Below, piece by piece: positions 2,615 through 10,716 of a DNA stretch of 10,716 nucleotides. Both the position numbers and the translations under genes were made by a program. Within the stretch, counting starts at the first letter, position 1, and every line of letters begins with the position of its first letter. The stretch spans positions 1-10,716 of the forward strand of contig JAJXUY010000028.1 in assembly GCA_021782525.1 (NCBI GenBank), in the 5' to 3' direction. This DNA comes from Acidobacteriota bacterium. Its GTDB lineage: Bacteria > Acidobacteriota > Thermoanaerobaculia > Thermoanaerobaculales > Thermoanaerobaculaceae. Below the pieces are notes generated by a model. The model searched no databases. It was not told the origin of the DNA and was given only the letters and a program-made list of their open reading frames with translations.

Positions 2615-2740
2615 CGGGGGCGAGACGCTCGCCGGTTCCTCGGGCCGCGGCGGTCTCGCGGACATCTGGCCGGTTGCGTCGCCGTTCCTGCGGCGGTGCT
2701 GGCAACGGCGCGGGGGAGGTACGTCCAGCGGTCGCCCGGA

Positions 2741-3154
2741 TCACCTCTTCCGGGCGGCGTCGAGGCTCCAGGCGCCCCCGCCGGCGGCCGAAAAGTAGAG
2801 CCAGATGAAGCAGAAGACCACGGGGTCGATGCCGCCGTTCAGGAGCGGCCAGAACCCTTTCGGCGCGAAGAACTGGAAGTAAGCCACCGCCATCTCGCCG
2901 GACAGGACGAACGCCACCGGACGGGTGAACAGGCCGAGCAGGAGGAGCCCGCCGCCGACGACCTCGAGGAGGCCGGCTAGCCCGACCTCGGACAGCAGCG
3001 GCACCGTGCCGCCGTTCGGGGGAACCCCGGCGGGGAAGGCGAACAGCTTCATCGTGCCGGCCAGGAGGAAGATGCCCGCCGCGACGATGCGCAGCACGCT
3101 TTGCAACTGCGGGCCCCAGCCCGACCACCTCGCGACCAGAGTGCGTTCACTCAT
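2741..3154 (-). CDS. DoxX family membrane protein
   Basis: The 137-residue product has four hydrophobic segments (about 18-39, 57-77, 79-96 and 110-126), the usual size and topology of DoxX/DoxD-like inner-membrane proteins. Diagnostic blocks are VLRIVAAGIFLLAGTMKL (20-37), the 'RIxxGxxFxxaGxxKL' motif; GLLEVVGGGLLLLGLFTRPVA (61-81), with the membrane-embedded Glu; and FAPKGFWPLLNGGIDPVVFC (96-115), the 'WPlxNGGE' segment in which the usual Glu is here Ile-Asp. DoxX proteins have been linked to thiosulfate/quinone chemistry in archaea and to redox stress complexes in mycobacteria, but most members have no known role. The start is ATG at 3154, with GGGGGTGAG about 3-6 bases upstream. The neighbours are unrelated and more than 120 bases away, so it is likely monocistronic. 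Confidence 0.92.
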   Translation of the reverse strand: MSERTLVARWSGWGPQLQSVLRIVAAGIFLLAGTMKLFAFPAGVPPNGGTVPLLSEVGLAGLLEVVGGGLLLLGLFTRPVAFVLSGEMAVAYFQFFAPKGFWPLLNGGIDPVVFCFIWLYFSAAGGGAWSLDAARKR

Positions 3155-3354
3155 CTCTCACCCCCATGCGCGATGAACCGAAGTCGCCCGCCGCCGGCCG
3201 GTGCGGTCCAGCGCGACCATCCGGCGCGCGAGACTGGCCGGACGTCGCCCGCCGTCGGCGATCGGCGTTCTTGCGCTCGCACGCGGCAACCGCGCCGGAT
3301 GTGGCGCTCGGGTGCGGGCGCGGGACACGGGCCCGCCAACGACGTCCGCGCGCA
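3155..3354. other. Intergenic region, no gene seen
   Basis: This is 200 bases of very GC-rich DNA between the DUF1579-like gene and the DoxX gene. Frames through it are short, Arg-rich and without recognisable domains. It must contain the DoxX leader and perhaps its promoter, but I see no clear -35/-10 pair and no strong hairpin with a T-run. Confidence 0.4.
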
Positions 3355-3939
3355 CTAGTGGTTCATCATGTGATGCGCCGGTGCGCCGGTCGGCGTGCAT
3401 GTCTCGCGGCCCAGCGGCGTCCAGGTTCCGTTCACCTCCAGCTCCCACGTGTGCTCCAGCGTGTGGGCGCCCTTCTTCGTGAATGTGTCGCGGCTGGTGA
3501 ACGTCTTGCCGTCCATCGAGCCTTCCCCGGACCAGACCATCGTGTCACCGTTCCAACCGGGCGAGGTCTCCTGCGAGAAACCGCCGCCGTTGTCCACCCA
3601 CAGCATCACGAACTGCTTCTTGCCGGGGTCGAACGTCATGTGGAACATCCCTTCCATCGGCCTCGGGGTCGCCGCCGCCTTGGTCTCCACGACCATGCCG
3701 GACACCCAGAAGCCGCCGAGAGCGCCGTGCGCGTGGACCTTCGAGGAGGTGGCGTGCGCCAAACCGAACGGTGAGGCGTCGGCCTGCCCGGTGCACGCGA
3801 AGCTGCCCTCGAACGGCTTCAACTGCGCCATCTCCGGCGCCGGGCGGGGAACCGCGGGTGCCGGCTCCGCGGCGCGGGCCGCGACGGCGGCGACTAGGGC
3901 CACGGCCGCTCCTACCGCAACGATCCGAGTGCTGTTCAT
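3355..3939 (-). CDS. Secreted DUF1579-like protein
   Basis: The 194-residue product starts at ATG 3939, behind AAGGAGAG about 5 bases upstream. Residues 1-23 are a signal peptide with a Sec-type cleavage site near ARA-AE, and a Pro/Ala-rich linker follows. The mature domain shows the DUF1579 pattern: MAQLKPFEGSFACTG (37-51), a run of beta strands with GGFWVSGMV (75-83), MEGMFHMTFDPGKKQFVMLW (95-114), a stretch with W129 and W136, and DGKTFTSRDTFT (143-154). DUF1579 proteins are exported or cytoplasmic beta-barrel-like proteins of unknown ligand. Two cysteines (C49 and C181) could form a disulfide. The C-terminus, APAHHMMNH, is rich in His and Met and might bind copper or another metal; that is my inference. 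It has its own strong promoter, so it is probably expressed constitutively and independently. Confidence 0.87.
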   Translation of the reverse strand: MNSTRIVAVGAAVALVAAVAARAAEPAPAVPRPAPEMAQLKPFEGSFACTGQADASPFGLAHATSSKVHAHGALGGFWVSGMVVETKAAATPRPMEGMFHMTFDPGKKQFVMLWVDNGGGFSQETSPGWNGDTMVWSGEGSMDGKTFTSRDTFTKKGAHTLEHTWELEVNGTWTPLGRETCTPTGAPAHHMMNH

Positions 3940-4000
3940 AGTCTCTCCTTTCCGAGGAGTGAAGGTACACAGAGAATCAGTTGCAATATCATTGAGGTGG

Positions 4001-4028
4001 ATTCTAGCGCCGGGGTGGCGACTGTCAA
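4001..4028 (-). promoter_or_regulatory. Near-consensus sigma70 promoter for the DUF1579-like gene
   Basis: On the minus strand a perfect -35 TTGACA (4023-4028 in plus coordinates) is followed by a 16-base spacer and the -10 TAGAAT (4001-4006), which is one mismatch from consensus. The start of transcription would fall near 3994, leaving a 5' leader of about 55 bases before ATG 3939. It is the best promoter match in the window, and the leader is notably AT-richer than its surroundings. Confidence 0.72.
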
Positions 4029-4101
4029 GACCGCGGCACCTCCCTTCTCCGGGCGACGAGTCGATACCAATGAGGGTGCGACTGCACCGATTGAGGGGGC
4101 G

Positions 4102-4887
4102 CTACTCGGGGAAGCGCCGGATCAGGTTGAAACCGAGCCGCACGTCACCGAGCCTGAACCCGCCGGGGATGTCGGAGCCGGCGATCAGGTCCACCGTGGT
4201 GGCGCGCGAGTTCCCCAGGTAGATCACGAACGCGTGTCCGGTCACGCGTTTCGTGAGCCCGACCGCCCAGGCGAGGGTCGCGCCCGGCGCGTCACGGTTC
4301 GCGGGGACGGCTTCCAGCGCCACGTCCCAGGCGTGCGGCAGGTGGAGTGAGGCGCCGAGGCCCACGTTCACGGCGTTGCGCAGCGTCGGTGTGTCCGACA
4401 CGAACATCGGCACAGCGAAGATATCGAGCGCGTGCCCGAGCCGGCGCGCCAGCACGACTTGCGCGAACCCGGCCCAGCGGTCGGTCTCGCCGGTCGCGGC
4501 GCGGTAATCCGTTCCGATCCTAAGCGCCACACCGAGCGGGAACCTCTCGCCCTGCAGCAGCGCGGTCCATTTCAACGCCGTCTCGTACTCCTTGAAGAGC
4601 GAGGAGCGGTACAGCGAGGTTTCCAACCCGTGGCCGAACCCTAGCGCGAGACCGAGGCCGACATCGGCGCCGGAGTCGAGGCCGTACAGGTTCCCGGGCC
4701 CGGCCGCGTCGACGGGCTCGGTGAAGCGGTGCGTGAAGAGCACCGCCAACGTCGATGGCGAGAGCGTCAGATGCGTCGGGAGGTTTACGAGCAGGTCGGT
4801 GAGTTCGGGCTCGAGCACCACCTGAGCGGACGCCGGCAGCGCGACTGCCAGTGCGACCACGGTGCAGACGAGCGCGCCCGACCGCAT
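4102..4887 (-). CDS. DUF5777-like outer-membrane beta-barrel protein
   Basis: This is a 261-residue exported protein. A GTG at 4893 is also possible, but ATG 4887 has AAGGG at a proper distance (5 bases), whereas that site would abut the GTG. Residues 1-20 form a signal peptide ending ALPASA-Q. The rest alternates polar and hydrophobic residues in strand-length blocks, with aromatic positions, and ends LGFNLIRRFPE, as expected for an outer-membrane barrel. The segments LTLSPSTLAVLFTHRFTEP, GLDSGADVGLGLALGFGHGLE and VALEAVPANRD match the DUF5777 pattern as I remember it. Members often lie beside c-type cytochromes or YceI proteins, and here the cytochrome-like gene ends only 9 bases upstream. 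No transport or binding function is established for the family. A role as the outer-membrane partner of the lipoprotein is inferred from gene order. Confidence 0.85.
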   Translation of the reverse strand: MRSGALVCTVVALAVALPASAQVVLEPELTDLLVNLPTHLTLSPSTLAVLFTHRFTEPVDAAGPGNLYGLDSGADVGLGLALGFGHGLETSLYRSSLFKEYETALKWTALLQGERFPLGVALRIGTDYRAATGETDRWAGFAQVVLARRLGHALDIFAVPMFVSDTPTLRNAVNVGLGASLHLPHAWDVALEAVPANRDAPGATLAWAVGLTKRVTGHAFVIYLGNSRATTVDLIAGSDIPGGFRLGDVRLGFNLIRRFPE

Positions 4888-4896
4888 CGACACCCT

Positions 4897-5445
4897 TCAG
4901 TCCTTGGGCGCGCCGCGGCGCACCCAGTCGATGACCAGCTGGATCTCGTCGGGTGACAGCGTGCTCCCGTTGGGCATGCGCACGCCGGTGATATCGGGGT
5001 CCCCGCGCAGCTTCTTGACCAGATACGATCGATCGGGGTCGCCCGGCTCGACGCGGGCGAGGTCCGGCCGCTCGACGGACGGCACGCGAACGATGCTGCC
5101 GTACGCCGCCCCGGCCGCGAGGCTCATCCCCTCCTGCGGGTTGAGGCTCGAGTGGCAGCCCGCCGCGGCGCAGTTGGGCGTGAACACGACCGCCTGCACG
5201 CGCGTGAACGTGGCGCTCGGGTTCGGCGTCGGCGCAACGGCCGGCTCGAACGGCAGCTTCCGTTGCCCGCAGCCGGCCGCGGCGAGCGCCGCCGCGAGGA
5301 CGGCGATGCGCAGCGGTGGGACGGTCCGCCGCTCCCGCCCCGGCAGCTCGCACCCGTGGCCGGCGCCTCCGACCTCCCTCCGCGGGAGGCGTGCAAGCTC
5401 CGGCCGCTCCCGGCCCCGCGAGCTGCATCTCCGGGCTCGCGCCAC
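4897..5445 (-). CDS. Cytochrome-c-like lipoprotein with a CX4CH haem motif
   Basis: The frame gives 182 residues from GTG 5445, but the functional protein probably begins near residue 45. The stretch LRIAVLAAALAAAGC (45-59) looks like a complete lipoprotein signal peptide with C59 as the lipidated residue. After a Pro-rich linker come F88-T-P-N-CAAAGCH (C92, C97, H98), a CX4CH haem-attachment motif, then PGDPDRSYLVKKLRG (134-148) and MPNGSTLSPDEIQLVIDWVRRGAP (157-180). The latter carries the usual axial Met (M157) and the C-terminal helix of single-haem cytochrome domains. This is typical of envelope electron-transfer lipoproteins annotated as c-type cytochromes. The gene sits 1 base after the PKD gene and 9 bases before the barrel gene, so co-transcription is likely. 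The odd point is the 44-residue Arg/Gly-rich N-terminus, encoded by a repeat cluster, with no ordinary start codon downstream of it. Confidence 0.82.
   Translation of the reverse strand: MARARRCSSRGRERPELARLPRREVGGAGHGCELPGRERRTVPPLRIAVLAAALAAAGCGQRKLPFEPAVAPTPNPSATFTRVQAVVFTPNCAAAGCHSSLNPQEGMSLAAGAAYGSIVRVPSVERPDLARVEPGDPDRSYLVKKLRGDPDITGVRMPNGSTLSPDEIQLVIDWVRRGAPKD
5328..5426. repeat. GC-rich cluster of direct and inverted repeats
   Basis: The cluster lies over the 5' end of the lipoprotein frame. GCCGCTCCCG occurs at 5328-5337 and again at 5403-5412, 75 bases apart. GCAGCTCGC (5343-5351) is perfectly inverted as GCGAGCTGC (5418-5426). CCGG plus AGCTCGCAC (5340-5353) is also inverted, with one mismatch and one bulge, as GTGCAAGCT plus CCGG (5391-5403). 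Inside is another hairpin, CCTCCC/GGGAGG (5373-5378/5384-5389). The mutually exclusive foldings could form a terminator-like or attenuator-like structure between the PKD gene and the lipoprotein, or be a short mobile repeat. Confidence 0.6.
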
Positions 5446-5446
5446 C

Positions 5447-7543
5447 TCAATACCCGTAGTAGTTCGTCACCGTGACCGTCCGCGTCGGCGGGTTGGGGTC
5501 GCTCACGCCATCGGTGTTGGTCACGGTGAACGTGACCGTGTACGACCCGGCGCTCGCGAACGAATGCGTCACCGAGAAGCCGCTCCCGGTGCTGCCGTCG
5601 CCGAAGTTCCACATGCGGGTCAGCGACTCGCCCTTCGGGTCGGTGCCGGTGCCGACGAAGCTCACCGCCGTGTTCGTGTAGGTCGAGATGTTGCCCGCGG
5701 GCGAGGTGATCGTCCCAGTCGGCGCCGGGGGCTGGGACGACGCGGTGACCGTGATGGCGCGCGTGGGCGGGTTGGGATCGCTCAGGCCGCTCGTGTCGGT
5801 GACCGTCATCGTGACCGTGAAGGTCCCCGTGGCGGTGTAGGTGTGGGTCGCCGAGTAGCCCGTGCCCGAGGTGCCATCGCCGAAGTTCCAGGAGACGCTC
5901 AGCGCCTCGCTCTGCGGGTCCGTCCCGGAGCCCTGGAACGTCACGGCGGCCCCCTCGGTCACCGAGACGTTTCCGGTCGGCGCCAAGATCGTTCCGGTCG
6001 GCGGCGACGGCTGGGCCGTCGCCGGCTGGGTCATGGCGGCCGGGAGCGCGACCGCCGGTTGGTGGAACCCGTCGTCGGTGACATTGTCGACCGGCGACGA
6101 GAAGATGTAGATCGGCTGCGTCGCCGTGAAGGTGATGAAGAAGTTGTCGAGCGTCTGCTGCGCGGCAGGGATGCCGGGGATGATCTGGTAGAAGAGCCCC
6201 TGGTCGTCGTCCCACGCCGGAAACGTCACCTGCGACGGCGGCGCGACGAGCGATCCGTCGGGCTTGCGCACGTTGAACGTCACCTCGATCGGGTTCGGGC
6301 TCGGGTTGAAGAAGCCGACGTTGGTGCGGAAGCCGGCGGCGTCGGTCTTCGGCCGGTTGGAGTTGAGCAGCAGCCCGCCCGACAGCAGCGCGCCGTCGGT
6401 CCCGAGGCCGGGTTCGTCCTGGCCGTAGGTCCCGGAACCCACCGACCGCTGGTCGTTGTAGCTGCGCGCGATGGCCTTGAACGGGAACGCCGAGAGCAGC
6501 CGGATCGCCCCGCGGTCCGCGGCCCGGAGCAGCGACGAGACGACGTCGTCGTAGACGGCCTCGCCGCCGGCCGGGATCGTGAACTCCGTCGTCGAGGCCG
6601 GCCCGGTGGCGTTCGACACGCCGTGCGGATACCACTCGGCGTAGGCCGTCGCCGGCTCGTCGGTCAGGCTGAGCGCGCGCAGATCGGTACGGAAGTAGCT
6701 CGTGCCCAGACCGGGGTTGTGCGCCGCGACCGCGAAGTTGACGTCCGTCTCGGTGGGCGCGAGCTGGCCGCGGATGGCGCCGTTGGGGAAGTCGCCGGTG
6801 TGGATGTTGACGTAGTACAGCGCCGGGTCCGCCTCGATCGCCGCCACCGTGGCGGCGTCCGCCGTCACCATCCCCGACGCCTGTCCACCCGCGAACGTCG
6901 GCGACAGCCCAACCAGCACGGGCCCGCTCACGCCCGCTGCACCCGTGTGGACGTGGGCCGCGGTCGGTGCCGAGAGCCCGGTCTCCCAGAGGTAGTAGTA
7001 GACGGTGGCACCGTCGAACACGAGCGCGGCGTACCCCTGCGCTGCGGTGGCGCCCCCGCCTGGCTCGCGGCTGGCGATCAGGTCGGTGGCGAGCGCGTAA
7101 CTAGCGGGGCCGTCTCCGAGGAGCTGGCCGCGCAGCGCACCGCCAGGGTACGCCGCGTTGTGGACGTTGACGTAAAACGCCGGAGGGTCGGCCAGGATCG
7201 GTGCCGTGGTCCCGCTGTCCGCCGCCACGGAGCCCATCGCGACGTAGGTGTTGGACGCCAGCGTCGTCCACGTCGGCGAGAACCCGACCACGATCGCCCC
7301 GGGAGCGCCCGCCAGCGCGGCGTGGATGTGAGCCGCTCCGGGGGCGGCGATGTTCTGCACCCAGAGGAAGTAGTACACGTTCCCGCCGTTGAAGGTGATC
7401 ACCGCCAGGCCGCGACCTGCGGGGTCGCCTCCTCCCGACTCACGCGAACCCAGCATCGTGGCGGTGAAGGTCTGCGCCGTCACTGGACCGGCGGCGAGAG
7501 CGACGAGAACCACACCAAACGCCCGTGCGATGAGCCGTCTCAT
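5447..7543 (-). CDS. Secreted two-CHRD, two-PKD domain protein
   Basis: The product is 698 residues from ATG 7543, chosen for the GAGGAGGG site 6 bases upstream and the signal peptide that follows (1-24, cleavage near VTA-Q). Domains in order are: CHRD 1 (about 25-142, with AAHIHAALAGAPG and YVNVHNAAYPGGALRGQL); CHRD 2 (about 148-262, with AAHVHTGAAGVSG and YVNIHTGDFPNGAIRGQL); a central beta-rich region (about 265-495, with AIARSYNDQ, GTYGQ and FRTNVGFFNPSPNPIEV); PKD 1 (about 515-600, WNFGDGTSG at 552-560); and PKD 2 (about 610-693, WNFGDGSTG at 645-653). CHRD domains were defined in chordin and are common in bacterial exported proteins. PKD domains are beta-sandwich spacers or ligand-binding modules. 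No protease or hydrolase motif is present, so a structural, adhesive or binding role outside the cell is likely. Its start overlaps the sigma-factor stop and its stop is 1 base from the lipoprotein start. Confidence 0.93.
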   Translation of the reverse strand: MRRLIARAFGVVLVALAAGPVTAQTFTATMLGSRESGGGDPAGRGLAVITFNGGNVYYFLWVQNIAAPGAAHIHAALAGAPGAIVVGFSPTWTTLASNTYVAMGSVAADSGTTAPILADPPAFYVNVHNAAYPGGALRGQLLGDGPASYALATDLIASREPGGGATAAQGYAALVFDGATVYYYLWETGLSAPTAAHVHTGAAGVSGPVLVGLSPTFAGGQASGMVTADAATVAAIEADPALYYVNIHTGDFPNGAIRGQLAPTETDVNFAVAAHNPGLGTSYFRTDLRALSLTDEPATAYAEWYPHGVSNATGPASTTEFTIPAGGEAVYDDVVSSLLRAADRGAIRLLSAFPFKAIARSYNDQRSVGSGTYGQDEPGLGTDGALLSGGLLLNSNRPKTDAAGFRTNVGFFNPSPNPIEVTFNVRKPDGSLVAPPSQVTFPAWDDDQGLFYQIIPGIPAAQQTLDNFFITFTATQPIYIFSSPVDNVTDDGFHQPAVALPAAMTQPATAQPSPPTGTILAPTGNVSVTEGAAVTFQGSGTDPQSEALSVSWNFGDGTSGTGYSATHTYTATGTFTVTMTVTDTSGLSDPNPPTRAITVTASSQPPAPTGTITSPAGNISTYTNTAVSFVGTGTDPKGESLTRMWNFGDGSTGSGFSVTHSFASAGSYTVTFTVTNTDGVSDPNPPTRTVTVTNYYGY

Positions 7544-8526
7544 GGAGCCCTCCTCACCCGCGGCGCGCTGGCCCGACTGCTCACGCCGCGCGCGGCGGTC
7601 GTTCCGAGTCTTCCTTCCGTCCGGATGTACGGCGGCGCCGCAGGAACGGATGTCACTCCGGCGGCGACTTCCGTCACGGTCCGGTCGCGGCGTGTACGGG
7701 GAGGGAGACGGCGGCGGGCCGCCGGTGCGTGCGCCGGCGGCGCGGCGGCAACGGGCCCGCCGTGGGACGGCGTGGGTCGGGGAAGATCGGTCGCGCTCGA
7801 TCGCTCGCAGGAGTTGGGGTGAGCTGCGGCCGTTGGGCACGTGGTCGCCGGGGCGCCGGCTGCAGTCGCCGGGATGCGCATCGATCGCCGCTCGCGCGCC
7901 TCCCGTGAGGCGACCGAGAAGGAGCTGAGCGGTGCGGGCGGGCACGCCGGCCCGCCGCCGTCGGACAGCGCGCGCCGCAGCGCAATCATCCCGGATCGAA
8001 TCCTTGTTTTGATCGTGCCCAGCGGCACACCGAACGCGGCGGCGATCTCGCTGTGCGACATACCGCCGAAGTACGCGGCGACGATCGCCCGTCGTTGCGT
8101 TTCCGGGATCTCCAGGAGCGCGACGCGCAGGTGGCGCACGAGCTCCGCTCCGAGGCTCAACGCCTCCGGGTTCGGCTTTCCGTCCGGAACCTCGCGGTGC
8201 AGCTCGAGAGGGAGCTCGCGCGTGGCCCGGCGCTGTCGGGAGCGCAGGCGGTCGACTGCCTGGTGATGCGCGAGCGTCAGCAGCCAAGACTCGGCGCGCC
8301 CGCGCGAGCCGTCAAACCGCGATGCCTGTCGCCACACCCTGAAATACACGTCCAGCGTGACCTCCTGCGCGGTGTGGTGGTCGCGGAGGATCCGCAGGGC
8401 CAACCCGTAGACTCGACGGCTGGTGGCGTCGTACAGCGACCGGAGTGCGGCCGGATCGCCCGCCCCGACGCCCTGCAGCAACTGATCCAGCGTTGGCACG
8501 ATGCTGATGGAACAACGGATCTCCAT
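7540..8526 (-). CDS. ECF RNA polymerase sigma factor with an unusual C-terminal extension
   Basis: From ATG 8526 the frame encodes 328 residues, of which the first ~190 are a standard ECF sigma factor (GTG 8499 is an alternative start; neither has a good Shine-Dalgarno site). Region 2 covers about 28-100: LYDATSRRVYGLALRILRD, then AQEVTLDVYFRVWRQASRFD for core binding and -10 recognition. Region 4 covers about 135-187: LLEIPETQRRAIVAAYFGGM, then HSEIAAAFGVPLGTIKTRIR, the helix-turn-helix that reads the -35. Such factors usually end near residue 190 (about 7957). Here the frame stays open for ~138 more residues, rich in Pro, Ala, Arg and Thr, and its TGA overlaps the ATG of the CHRD/PKD gene. 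Third-position G/C falls in the extension, so it may be untranslated, a readthrough after loss of a stop, or a real disordered tail. No anti-sigma gene is recognisable. The likely targets are its own operon. Confidence 0.9.
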   Translation of the reverse strand: MEIRCSISIVPTLDQLLQGVGAGDPAALRSLYDATSRRVYGLALRILRDHHTAQEVTLDVYFRVWRQASRFDGSRGRAESWLLTLAHHQAVDRLRSRQRRATRELPLELHREVPDGKPNPEALSLGAELVRHLRVALLEIPETQRRAIVAAYFGGMSHSEIAAAFGVPLGTIKTRIRSGMIALRRALSDGGGPACPPAPLSSFSVASREARERRSMRIPATAAGAPATTCPTAAAHPNSCERSSATDLPRPTPSHGGPVAAAPPAHAPAARRRLPPRTRRDRTVTEVAAGVTSVPAAPPYIRTEGRLGTTAARGVSSRASAPRVRRAP

Positions 8527-8639
8527 GGGAGATTCCGCCCGACTGTTCGCCGGCGGCCATCCCCCGGAGCGCTTCGCCGGCGACGCCGGCCGACACGCGG
8601 CGCTGCCCCGTCTCGGGCCCGACGTGACACAATGCGCGG
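8527..8639. promoter_or_regulatory. Divergent intergenic region between the sigma factor and FGE-like genes
   Basis: These 113 bases must carry the leaders of two genes transcribed away from each other. They contain TTCGCCGGCG twice (8546-8555 and 8573-8582) and other GC-rich partial palindromes (CGCCGGCG, GACGCCGGCC). I see neither a convincing sigma70 promoter nor an ECF-type GGAAC/GTC pair, so the regulatory content is inferred from gene orientation only. Confidence 0.4.
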
Positions 8640-10415
8640 ATGCGGGCCCCATGCTCCTTGACGCGCGTTGCGGCGATGGCGGCGGTCGCGGTCCTGTGCG
8701 CCGGCGCGGCGCTCGGGTTCGGCCGGGTCACTGCGCGAAACGGCGAGGTGGTGACACTGTCCGTCGGTTCGCGCGACGGCGTCCAGTCCGGGATGCGCGG
8801 CGACGTCGTCAAGCTGGTCGAGGCGAAAGGGCAGTCGCAACCGACCGTCATCGCCTCGTTCGTCGTCACCGAAGTCGGCGAGGGTTCGAGCCAGGCTCGG
8901 CTGGAGAAGGTCGAGGCCGGCTTCGAAGGTGATCCGATGCGGGGCCTGCCGGTCGCGTTCGACAAGCCGCTGAAGAAACCGGAGACCGCGCCCGCGGCGG
9001 CGCCGGCCACGCCACCCCCGACGGCCGGGGAGGCGCCGACCCCGGCCACGCCGCCCCCGGCTGCGCAGGGAACACCGTCCCCAGCGCCCGCCCCACGCCT
9101 GCCGGACAATCCGGTCCAGCTGCTGAATCAGGCCGACGCCGCCTGGGAGCAGCAGGACTGGGAGAGGGCCGCCGAGCTGTACGAGGCGTTGCTCCGGGTG
9201 ATGCCGGGCTACCCGATGGCGGTCAAGCGGGCCGCGGCGGCGCGGGCGAAGATCCAGACCGCGCCGGCGGAGGCCCGGGGTGCGACCGACGAGGCGGTGC
9301 GACAGGCGGCGCTGGCGCAGGAGCGCAGGAACCTCCCCGACTACCGCGAGAAGGCGAAGGCGTTTCTCGCCGCCGGCAACTGGAACGCCGCCGTCGAGTG
9401 GCTGCAGAGGATCGCCGCGGCCGACCCGAACGACGCCTACCTGGCCTCGGTGGTGGAGGGCCGGAGGCACGACGCCGAGCGGGCGCTCGCCGAGAAGCGC
9501 TACGACGACGCGGTCAGGGAGTGCGAGGAGGCGCTCGCGGTCTCGGCGCCGCCGCCGCCGGCGATCAAGGCGTTGCTGGGGCAGGCGCGCACCGGGCAGG
9601 TGAACCGGTGGCTTGCCGAGGGCGACGGCGACCTGGCGCGGGGCGACGTCCCCGCTGCGCGGCTCGCGTGGGACCGGGTGGCTGCGGTGGATCCGCACAA
9701 CGCCGGCCTCGACCAGAGGCTGACGAAGCTCGACTGGGTGAGGATCCCGGCCGGGACGTTCGAGATGGGGTGCGTCCCCGCGGACACCGAGTGCTCCGAC
9801 AACGAGAAGCCGCGCCACGCGGTCACGATCAGCAAGCCGTTCCTGATGATGAAGAGGCCCGTGACCGTCGCGCAGTACCGCCGGTTCGCGCAGTCGACCG
9901 AGCGTGCGGCGGCGCTGCCGCCGGCGTTCGCGCAGGGCGACGATCACCCGGTGGTCGACGTCAATTGGGACGATGCCGTGGCGTACTGCTCGTGGGCCGG
10001 CGGCCGCCTGCCGACGGAAGCCGAGTGGGAGTACGCCGCGCGGGGCGGCAAGGACGGACTGAAGTACCCGTGGGGCAACTCGATCAGCCACGACGACGCG
10101 AACTTCAAGGGAACGGGCGGCCGCGACCAGTGGAAGTACACCTCGCCGGTCGGCTCGTTCGCGGCGAACGGGTTCGGCCTTTTCGACATGGCGGGGAACG
10201 TGTGGGAGTGGTGCGCCGACCTGTACGGCGAGACGTACTACGCGAACTCGCCGTCGGTCGACCCGCAGGGGCCCGCGTCAGGGAGCTCGCGCGTGCTGCG
10301 CGGGGGATCGTGGGACTTCGAGCCCAAGAGCCTGCGCACCTCGTTCCGGGGCTGGGTCCTGACGTGGGGCGGGTGTGACAGCGGCGGCTTCCGCTGCGTC
10401 CGCCCGTCTCGCTGA
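8640..10415 (+). CDS. Exported TPR-like protein with a non-catalytic FGE-sulfatase domain
   Basis: The product is 591 residues from ATG 8640; ATG 8676 would shorten the leader by 12 residues, and neither has a clear ribosome binding site. Residues ~9-26 are a hydrophobic export signal. Next come a small beta-type domain (28-108, with GEVVTLSVGSRDGVQSGMRGDVV, similar in style to FlgT-type C-terminal domains), a Pro/Ala linker (115-155), and TPR-like helices (~158-360, with AWEQQDWERAAELYEALLRVMPG, FLAAGNWNAAVEWLQRIAAADP and LARGDVPAARLAWDRVAAVDP). The C-terminal FGE-sulfatase domain (365-591) has WVRIPAGTFEMG, RPVTVAQYRRFA, VDVNWDDAVAYCSWAGGRLPTEAEWEYAARGG, YPWGN, NGFGLFDMAGNVWEWCADLYG and RVLRGGSWDF. 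True formylglycine-generating enzymes have two cysteines shortly after RGGS. Here that segment is RGGSWDFEPKSLRTSFRG, with none, so sulfatase maturation is unlikely. A binding or structural role on the periplasmic side is more plausible. Confidence 0.9.
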   Translation: MRAPCSLTRVAAMAAVAVLCAGAALGFGRVTARNGEVVTLSVGSRDGVQSGMRGDVVKLVEAKGQSQPTVIASFVVTEVGEGSSQARLEKVEAGFEGDPMRGLPVAFDKPLKKPETAPAAAPATPPPTAGEAPTPATPPPAAQGTPSPAPAPRLPDNPVQLLNQADAAWEQQDWERAAELYEALLRVMPGYPMAVKRAAAARAKIQTAPAEARGATDEAVRQAALAQERRNLPDYREKAKAFLAAGNWNAAVEWLQRIAAADPNDAYLASVVEGRRHDAERALAEKRYDDAVRECEEALAVSAPPPPAIKALLGQARTGQVNRWLAEGDGDLARGDVPAARLAWDRVAAVDPHNAGLDQRLTKLDWVRIPAGTFEMGCVPADTECSDNEKPRHAVTISKPFLMMKRPVTVAQYRRFAQSTERAAALPPAFAQGDDHPVVDVNWDDAVAYCSWAGGRLPTEAEWEYAARGGKDGLKYPWGNSISHDDANFKGTGGRDQWKYTSPVGSFAANGFGLFDMAGNVWEWCADLYGETYYANSPSVDPQGPASGSSRVLRGGSWDFEPKSLRTSFRGWVLTWGGCDSGGFRCVRPSR

Positions 10416-10457
10416 CGCGGCGGCCTCGCTCGACCACTGTGATTTCCCACAGAGATG

Positions 10458-10467
10458 GTACCACTTT
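10458..10467 (+). repeat. Target-site duplication, left copy
   Basis: GTACCACTTT directly abuts the left inverted end of the 149-bp element. It is identical to the copy at 10617-10626, and the identity stops at exactly 10 bases (the outer neighbours are G and T, the inner ones A and G). Confidence 0.72.
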
Positions 10468-10616
10468 AGGGCTATTCGGCTCACTCCAGTTGCTGATGCG
10501 CATGTCGTGAGGTGCTCGCAGCTTACGGCACGCGCCGACGGAGACTTCCGTTTGCTACCAACCCACGGTGGATCAGTGGATTGCAATGCGGTCGCTTGAG
10601 TCGAAGGGATAGCCCT
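10468..10616. mobile_element. MITE-like element, 149 bp
   Basis: The left end reads AGGGCTAT and the right end is its exact inverse, ATAGCCCT. Aligning the first 22 bases of each end gives 15 matches: the 8-base tip, a C at position 10, ACTC at 16-19 and AG at 21-22. The sequence directly outside each end is the same 10-mer, GTACCACTTT, as expected for a target-site duplication. There is no transposase and no room for one. The interior is about 59% G+C by hand count, lower than the neighbouring genes. It is best read as a non-autonomous element moved in trans. A 10-base duplication would fit IS4-type transposases, but the family is not determined. Confidence 0.75.
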
Positions 10617-10626
10617 GTACCACTTT
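10617..10626 (+). repeat. Target-site duplication, right copy
   Basis: GTACCACTTT directly follows the right inverted end ATAGCCCT. Removing the element and one copy restores a continuous ...GAGATG-GTACCACTTT-GTGTTC... sequence, which is the predicted empty site. Confidence 0.72.
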
Positions 10627-10691
10627 GTGTTCAACCGTAATGTTTTGGTAGTGGCCAAGCACACGCGCGCAGGAGGCCCGTAGGGAACCAC

Positions 10692-10716
10692 TGTCATCGC
10701 GAGGAGTCCCGCCAAC
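10692..10716 (+). repeat. Possible start of an interspersed repeat, cut by the window edge
   Basis: The sequence TGTCATCGCGAGGAGTCCCG, continuing to the window end, resembles the opening of the 'GTCATTGCGAGGAG...' intergenic repeats found in several bacterial phyla, which usually continue into a GC-rich hairpin and end '...GCAATC'. Only the first ~25 bases are here, so the identification rests on memory of the motif. Confidence 0.35.

Follow-up and report, generated by a model that had tools for sequence, protein, structure and literature searches.

Downstream of a gene for a protein with TPR and FGE-sulfatase domains, the window (the whole stretch of 10,716 nucleotides analyzed here) carries a 149-bp segment that is best read, with good confidence, as a miniature non-autonomous element whose insertion into the left tip of a dispersed repeat (R in what follows) duplicated 10 bp of target. 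A transposition-type insertion with such a duplication had been proposed in a sequence-only reading of this DNA; it is still the best explanation, and the unbroken copies of R in relatives lend it further weight. The duplication, the inverted ends, the absence of a transposase, and the occurrence of uninterrupted copies of R at other sites were established directly. The features to which we refer are as follows.

8640 to 10415, + strand: upstream gene, encoding a TPR and FGE-sulfatase (SUMF1) domain protein
10458 to 10467, + strand: left direct repeat GTACCACTTT of the putative target duplication, probably the original R tip
10468 to 10616, no strand assigned: 149-bp putative miniature element without a transposase
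10468 to 10483, + strand: left terminal inverted repeat AGGGCTATTCGGCTCA
10597 to 10616, - strand: terminal inverted repeat of the right end, AGGGCTATCCCTTCGACTCA as its reverse complement, with a 4-nt insertion
10617 to 10626, + strand: right direct repeat GTACCACTTT, which from 10618 on is the conserved left tip of R
10617 to 10716, + strand: left part of R, ended by the window end
10691 to 10716, + strand: start of a REP-like palindromic module in R, which alone matches many other places in related genomes

Examination of the segment reproduced the coordinates and letters given earlier for the 10-mer pair, the flush 8-bp inverted pair, and the 15 of 22 matches of the ungapped inverted ends. 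The direct 10-mers agree at 10 of 10 positions, and since the bases adjoining the two differ, the duplication is exactly 10 bp. Flush inside them lies the perfect 8-bp inverted pair, AGGGCTAT (10468-10475) and ATAGCCCT (10609-10616). When one 4-nt gap was allowed, the ends matched at 15 of 16 positions, with AGGGCTATTCGGCTCA set against AGGGCTAT+CCCT+TCGACTCA, and the element thus has imperfect 16-bp terminal inverted repeats (AGGGCTATTCGRCTCA). The MITE features present here are therefore terminal inverted repeats, a flush target-site duplication, and the lack of a transposase gene inside. The G+C content is 59% in the element versus 71% in the window. As to the earlier statement that the element has no coding capacity, short open frames do run across the 149 bp; two of the translations, which served as bait for spurious open reading frames in further copies, shared three common 5-residue words with no database protein. 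The suggestion that the insertion is recent had the intact 10-mer as its sole basis.

A scan of the whole window at enclosed lengths of 60-400 bp found no second flush structure of 10 + 8 bp. We then compared the pair with 150 sequences simulated under a first-order Markov model to match the window in length and composition, counting as a flush pair a direct repeat of 4 or more and an inverted repeat of 5 or more at an enclosed length of 40-600. The best flush pair totaled at least 18 bp in 2 of the 150 simulated windows, a chance value near 1% for the bare pair, and the earlier phrase "very unlikely by chance" accordingly overstated slightly the case for the two signals by themselves. That value is lowered by the gapped extension of the ends and by the position of the structure at the R tip. 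A coincidental meeting of a 10-bp direct repeat and an 8-bp inverted repeat, which those two simulated windows would allow, is on balance extremely unlikely, given that the inverted repeat continues at 7 of 8 positions beyond the 4-nt gap and that R's own tip forms the right 10-mer.

We also considered whether the segment could be a structured RNA or regulatory element, that is, a transcribed, multi-branched fold closed by a stem of AGGGCTAT and ATAGCCCT, with the 10-mers incidental. The predicted RNA fold of the 149 bp reached -66.3 kcal/mol (z -3.8) on the + strand and -54.8 (z -2.0) on the - strand, a difference in favor of such a structure, as was the z of -3.3 obtained in a separate test with 300 shuffles; the DNA fold gave z -2.3. 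Inverted ends by themselves raise the folding energy, however, and among 14 sliding frames the one at 10400-10548 (149 bp) likewise reached z -3.3 (60 shuffles), so the folding signal does not set the element apart. Rfam gave no match over threshold in 10300-10716, the single match, at 10324-10414, being below threshold and within the coding region and hence set aside, and the same interval held no terminator-like or sigma-70 promoter-like site. As a structured RNA would also leave the flush, perfect 10-mers unexplained, we hold this explanation to be very unlikely.

The DNA to the right of the element proved to be part of R in a search of seven related genomes with 10438-10716. Positions 10618-10716 matched the start of R at 93% identity in G001 and 92% in G002, 10619-10713 matched a copy in G004 at 82%, and 10634-10716 matched a copy without its tip in G003 (L017) at 87%. 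The upstream flanks at the matching places were unrelated, indicating that the repeat cut off by the window end is a dispersed one. The matches in G001, G002, and G004 start inside the right-hand 10-mer; the sequence-only reading had recognized this 10-mer as a direct flank but missed that it belongs to another repeat.

The R loci that we looked at include L015, L016, L018, and L050-L079. The left tip of R approximates CTGATACC(G/A)CTTT, and the consensus tip CTGATACC is found on both sides. Among 17 right ends, 11 were GGTATCAG or GGTATGAG, two were GGCATCAG, and four were of other kinds. Seven copies with both ends recognizable ranged from 69 to 266 bp in length, and REP-like palindromes occupied the body of most copies inspected. 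A full copy of R used as query found at least 53 places in at least eight of 21 genomes at E<=1e-8, many of these matches covering the palindromic part only. A pattern for the inner R tip gave 15 matches in 59 genomes, 11 of them R left ends; L112, L117, L118, and L119 appeared unrelated by eye and were left out. In G002 (L113, 1487-1555) we observed a 69-bp R-type copy in which the left tip is followed almost at once by the right end GGTATGAG. This copy has no REP modules and may represent the minimal mobile unit of R.

In copies of R elsewhere, the tip is joined to the body without a break, as TACTACTTTG in L015 (G001), TACCACTTTG in L016 (G002), and CACCACTTTG in L018 (G004), or, in longer form, TACTACTTTGCGTTCAACCG, TACCACTTTGCGTTCAACCG, and CACCACTTTGTGTTCAAACC, respectively. 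By eye, nine of the 11 R left ends show a recognizable tip joined immediately to the body. Because the tip continues unbroken in them, these copies can be used as paralogous empty sites; the tipless L017 copy of G003 cannot. The window itself holds TACCACTTT twice, once beside the body of R and once beyond the 149 bp. With the tip sequence present twice, the arrangement is most simply explained by an insertion of the element behind TACCACTTT that duplicated 10 bp. Both window 10-mers have G before TACC. The readable R copies have A at this base in L015, L016, L018, L030, L056, L058, and L124, and G in L116 and L121. The G shared by both window 10-mers mildly favors a duplication over two independent tips.

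The insertion may be pictured as follows. The older R repeat would have been in place first, downstream of the FGE-domain gene. The element would have been brought from elsewhere, probably by a DDE-type transposase acting in trans. It would have entered the left tip of R, after TACCACTTT, at a staggered cut of 10 bp, and gap repair would then have copied GTACCACTTT to yield the 10-bp duplication. Transposition as such, the type of transposase, and the precedence of R over the element are our inference. The insertion point lies within ~12 bp of the end of R, by luck or by preference.

The tip of one R copy, L054 (G010:C30), complicates this account. Its left tip is AAAGGGCTATTCGCTCAATCG, that is, AGGGCTATTCG-CTCAATC, and its match to the element ends is much closer than that of the R consensus. 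Both element ends aligned to the L054 tip better than any of 2000 shuffles, in a test made after the fact, with L054 chosen because the motif was visible there. Against the R consensus the element ends scored no better than shuffles (fractions 0.315 and 0.249). Judged from these alignments, a relationship between the element ends and at least one R tip is probable, and the L054 tip suggests a less clean picture than that of a stranger inserted into R. The tips of the element itself are AGGGCTAT rather than of the CTGATACC type seen at both ends of R, a pattern from which the left tip of L054 also departs.

It is in this light that two neighboring members of one repeat superfamily have to be weighed against an insertion. 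Here, TACCACTTT would be a shared family tip, the apparent duplication would consist of two tips pointing the same way, with the 149 bp as a diverged R-type element beside a standard R. Such an arrangement draws on the fact that TACCACTTT forms part of the conserved tip of R, and on the AGGGCTATTCG-CTCA tip that L054 carries on an R body and that outscored the 2000 shuffles post hoc. If TACCACTTT were the element's own end, however, the inverted form AAAGTGGTA would be expected at the right, where the direct form is found instead. The failure of the element ends to exceed shuffles against the R consensus also speaks against it, as does the agreement of the 10-mers at 10 of 10 positions, which extends to the G although another base is commoner at that place in R tips. 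We consider two adjacent repeats rather improbable. Also unlikely is a related possibility, in which the element and R would be two branches of one miniature-transposon superfamily, with L054 as an intermediate, that insert in each other's tips; were this true, the lineage would build nested or chained repeats downstream of genes.

Returning to insertion of a distinct miniature element into R, we looked for further copies of that element by three different searches, the genome sets of which (99, 393, and 295 genomes) overlap. The end pattern AGGGCTATYCNNNNNACTCMAG occurred in none of 393 related genomes, and similarity to the element at E<=1e-4 was found in none of 295. The 169-bp query gave weak matches at 15 places in 14 of 99 genomes, with E values from 0.0016 to 0.1; alignments were inspected at E<=0.05 among the loci fetched. 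Thirteen of the 15 fall on the G+C-rich middle (query 52-110), and the remaining two, in G005 (query 21-40) and G074 (query 25-64), cover the inner left end and leave the first 10 bases untouched; all were judged to be chance. A control of a kind is provided by the flanking R sequence, which recovered its own copies by the same similarity search. The exact 21-mer of the left end was found in no stretch of genome_contigs. Allowing up to two mismatches, the end pattern gave three matches in 21 genomes, on three separate contigs, and a looser pattern gave two in 39 genomes, one being the R copy L054 and the other lying inside a reading frame that by eye resembles PEP synthase. Plasmids had no match to 10420-10716, and phages had none to 10458-10626. 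Seven viral-contig matches to the left-end 16-mer shared 16-18 bp, where a rough estimate predicts about 20 by chance, and were discarded. The idea of an undescribed non-autonomous family thus found no backing: the 99, 393, and 295 genomes, genome_contigs, the plasmids, and the phages yielded no convincing second copy. Family status is therefore unproven, and sister copies may lie elsewhere in the window's own genome. Titles and abstract openings in the literature on acidobacterial MITEs and REP elements of this class included none on this element.

Transposases with the PF01609 domain were matched 27 times in 13 of 31 related genomes. Neither GGGCTATTCG nor GGGCTATTCA was present at any of the 27 loci, some of which end at contig edges, and an autonomous IS with the same ends, which the sequence-only reading had thought worth seeking, was found at none of them. 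One of the related genomes, G002, does carry a 1861-bp IS (L098, 1040-2900) with ends CTTGCCCACCCCCAGT and a 10-bp duplication, GTCCGCGCCC, so machinery for 10-bp duplications exists in the lineage. The best NCBIfam match of L098 was to the IS4 family at 122.5 bits, below the model cut-off of 152, and its transposase translation shows by eye the Y-2-R-3-E-6-K spacing. At E<=1e-10, a search of 147 related genomes showed no relative of this IS in the 146 besides G002.

Members of the IS4 family have target duplications of about 10 bp according to PMC2266710, a value with which the 10-bp duplication of the element agrees. The subgroup end signatures given there include CAT for IS231 and ISH8, CA for IS4Sa, CT for IS10, and -AATR for IS4 (PMC2266710). 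The element end AGGGCTAT fits none of the seven subgroup signatures given (PMC2266710); because of this mismatch, the element is not filed under IS4.

The element resembles bacterial MITEs in its small size (149 bp), inverted ends, lack of a transposase, and flush target duplication, but differs from them in being found as one copy, with no autonomous partner of the same ends in the loci examined. With the IS4 family it shares the duplication of about 10 bp, also made by the IS4-type L098 of the related genome G002, whereas its ends are AGGGCTAT and L098 ends in CTTGCCCACC. Like R, it is non-coding and has related tips, the left tip of the R copy L054 resembling the element end; unlike R, it has neither CTGATACC tips nor REP-like palindromes. 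IS231A reportedly inserts into the terminal repeats of Tn4430, duplicating about 10-12 bp. The element likewise duplicates 10 bp and sits in the end of another repeat, but here it is a single non-autonomous copy in an acidobacterial repeat, and no target preference is claimed. In sum, we see one transposon-like, non-autonomous insertion within a dispersed repeat, which is real, well preserved, and ordinary in kind. This example from an uncultured acidobacterial lineage documents the presence of such nested repeats in that lineage and offers a sequence to seek in fuller genomes; the general picture is unchanged by it.

Homologues of the upstream gene were headed by eight at 82-93% identity, and the named lineages among the top homologues were Acidobacteria bacterium 37-71-11 and Thermoanaerobaculaceae. 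By sequence comparison, the window is related to Acidobacteria bacterium 37-71-11. Relatives of the gene were present in seven genome_contigs loci, of which L008 (Acidobacteria bacterium WY1.bin89) is the closest full one and L014 covers just the start of the gene. DNA similarity to the orthologous loci ends at 10437 (L008), 10436 (L011), 10432 (L009), 10425 (L010), and 10405 (L012 and L013), at most 22 bp beyond the stop codon, and none of the six loci showed a trace of the element or its downstream DNA at the site. By eye, GAGATG just before 10458 appeared common to the orthologous loci; as the local alignments stop at 10437 or earlier, we did not use it as evidence.

The FGE-sulfatase fold is often diversified by diversity-generating retroelements. 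We rejected such a retroelement for the upstream gene: the C-terminus is nearly identical in the closest of 19 homologues and varies with relatedness rather than being hypervariable. An alignment of the FGE N-terminal part had no relative in viral contigs. In L008, ~90 bp separate the parts matching window positions 2625 and 8620, and the intervening ~6-kb block of the window (about 2626-8619) is absent from that locus or placed elsewhere. This block contains DoxX, DUF1579, DUF5777, CHRD-PKD, and most of a sigma-70 gene.
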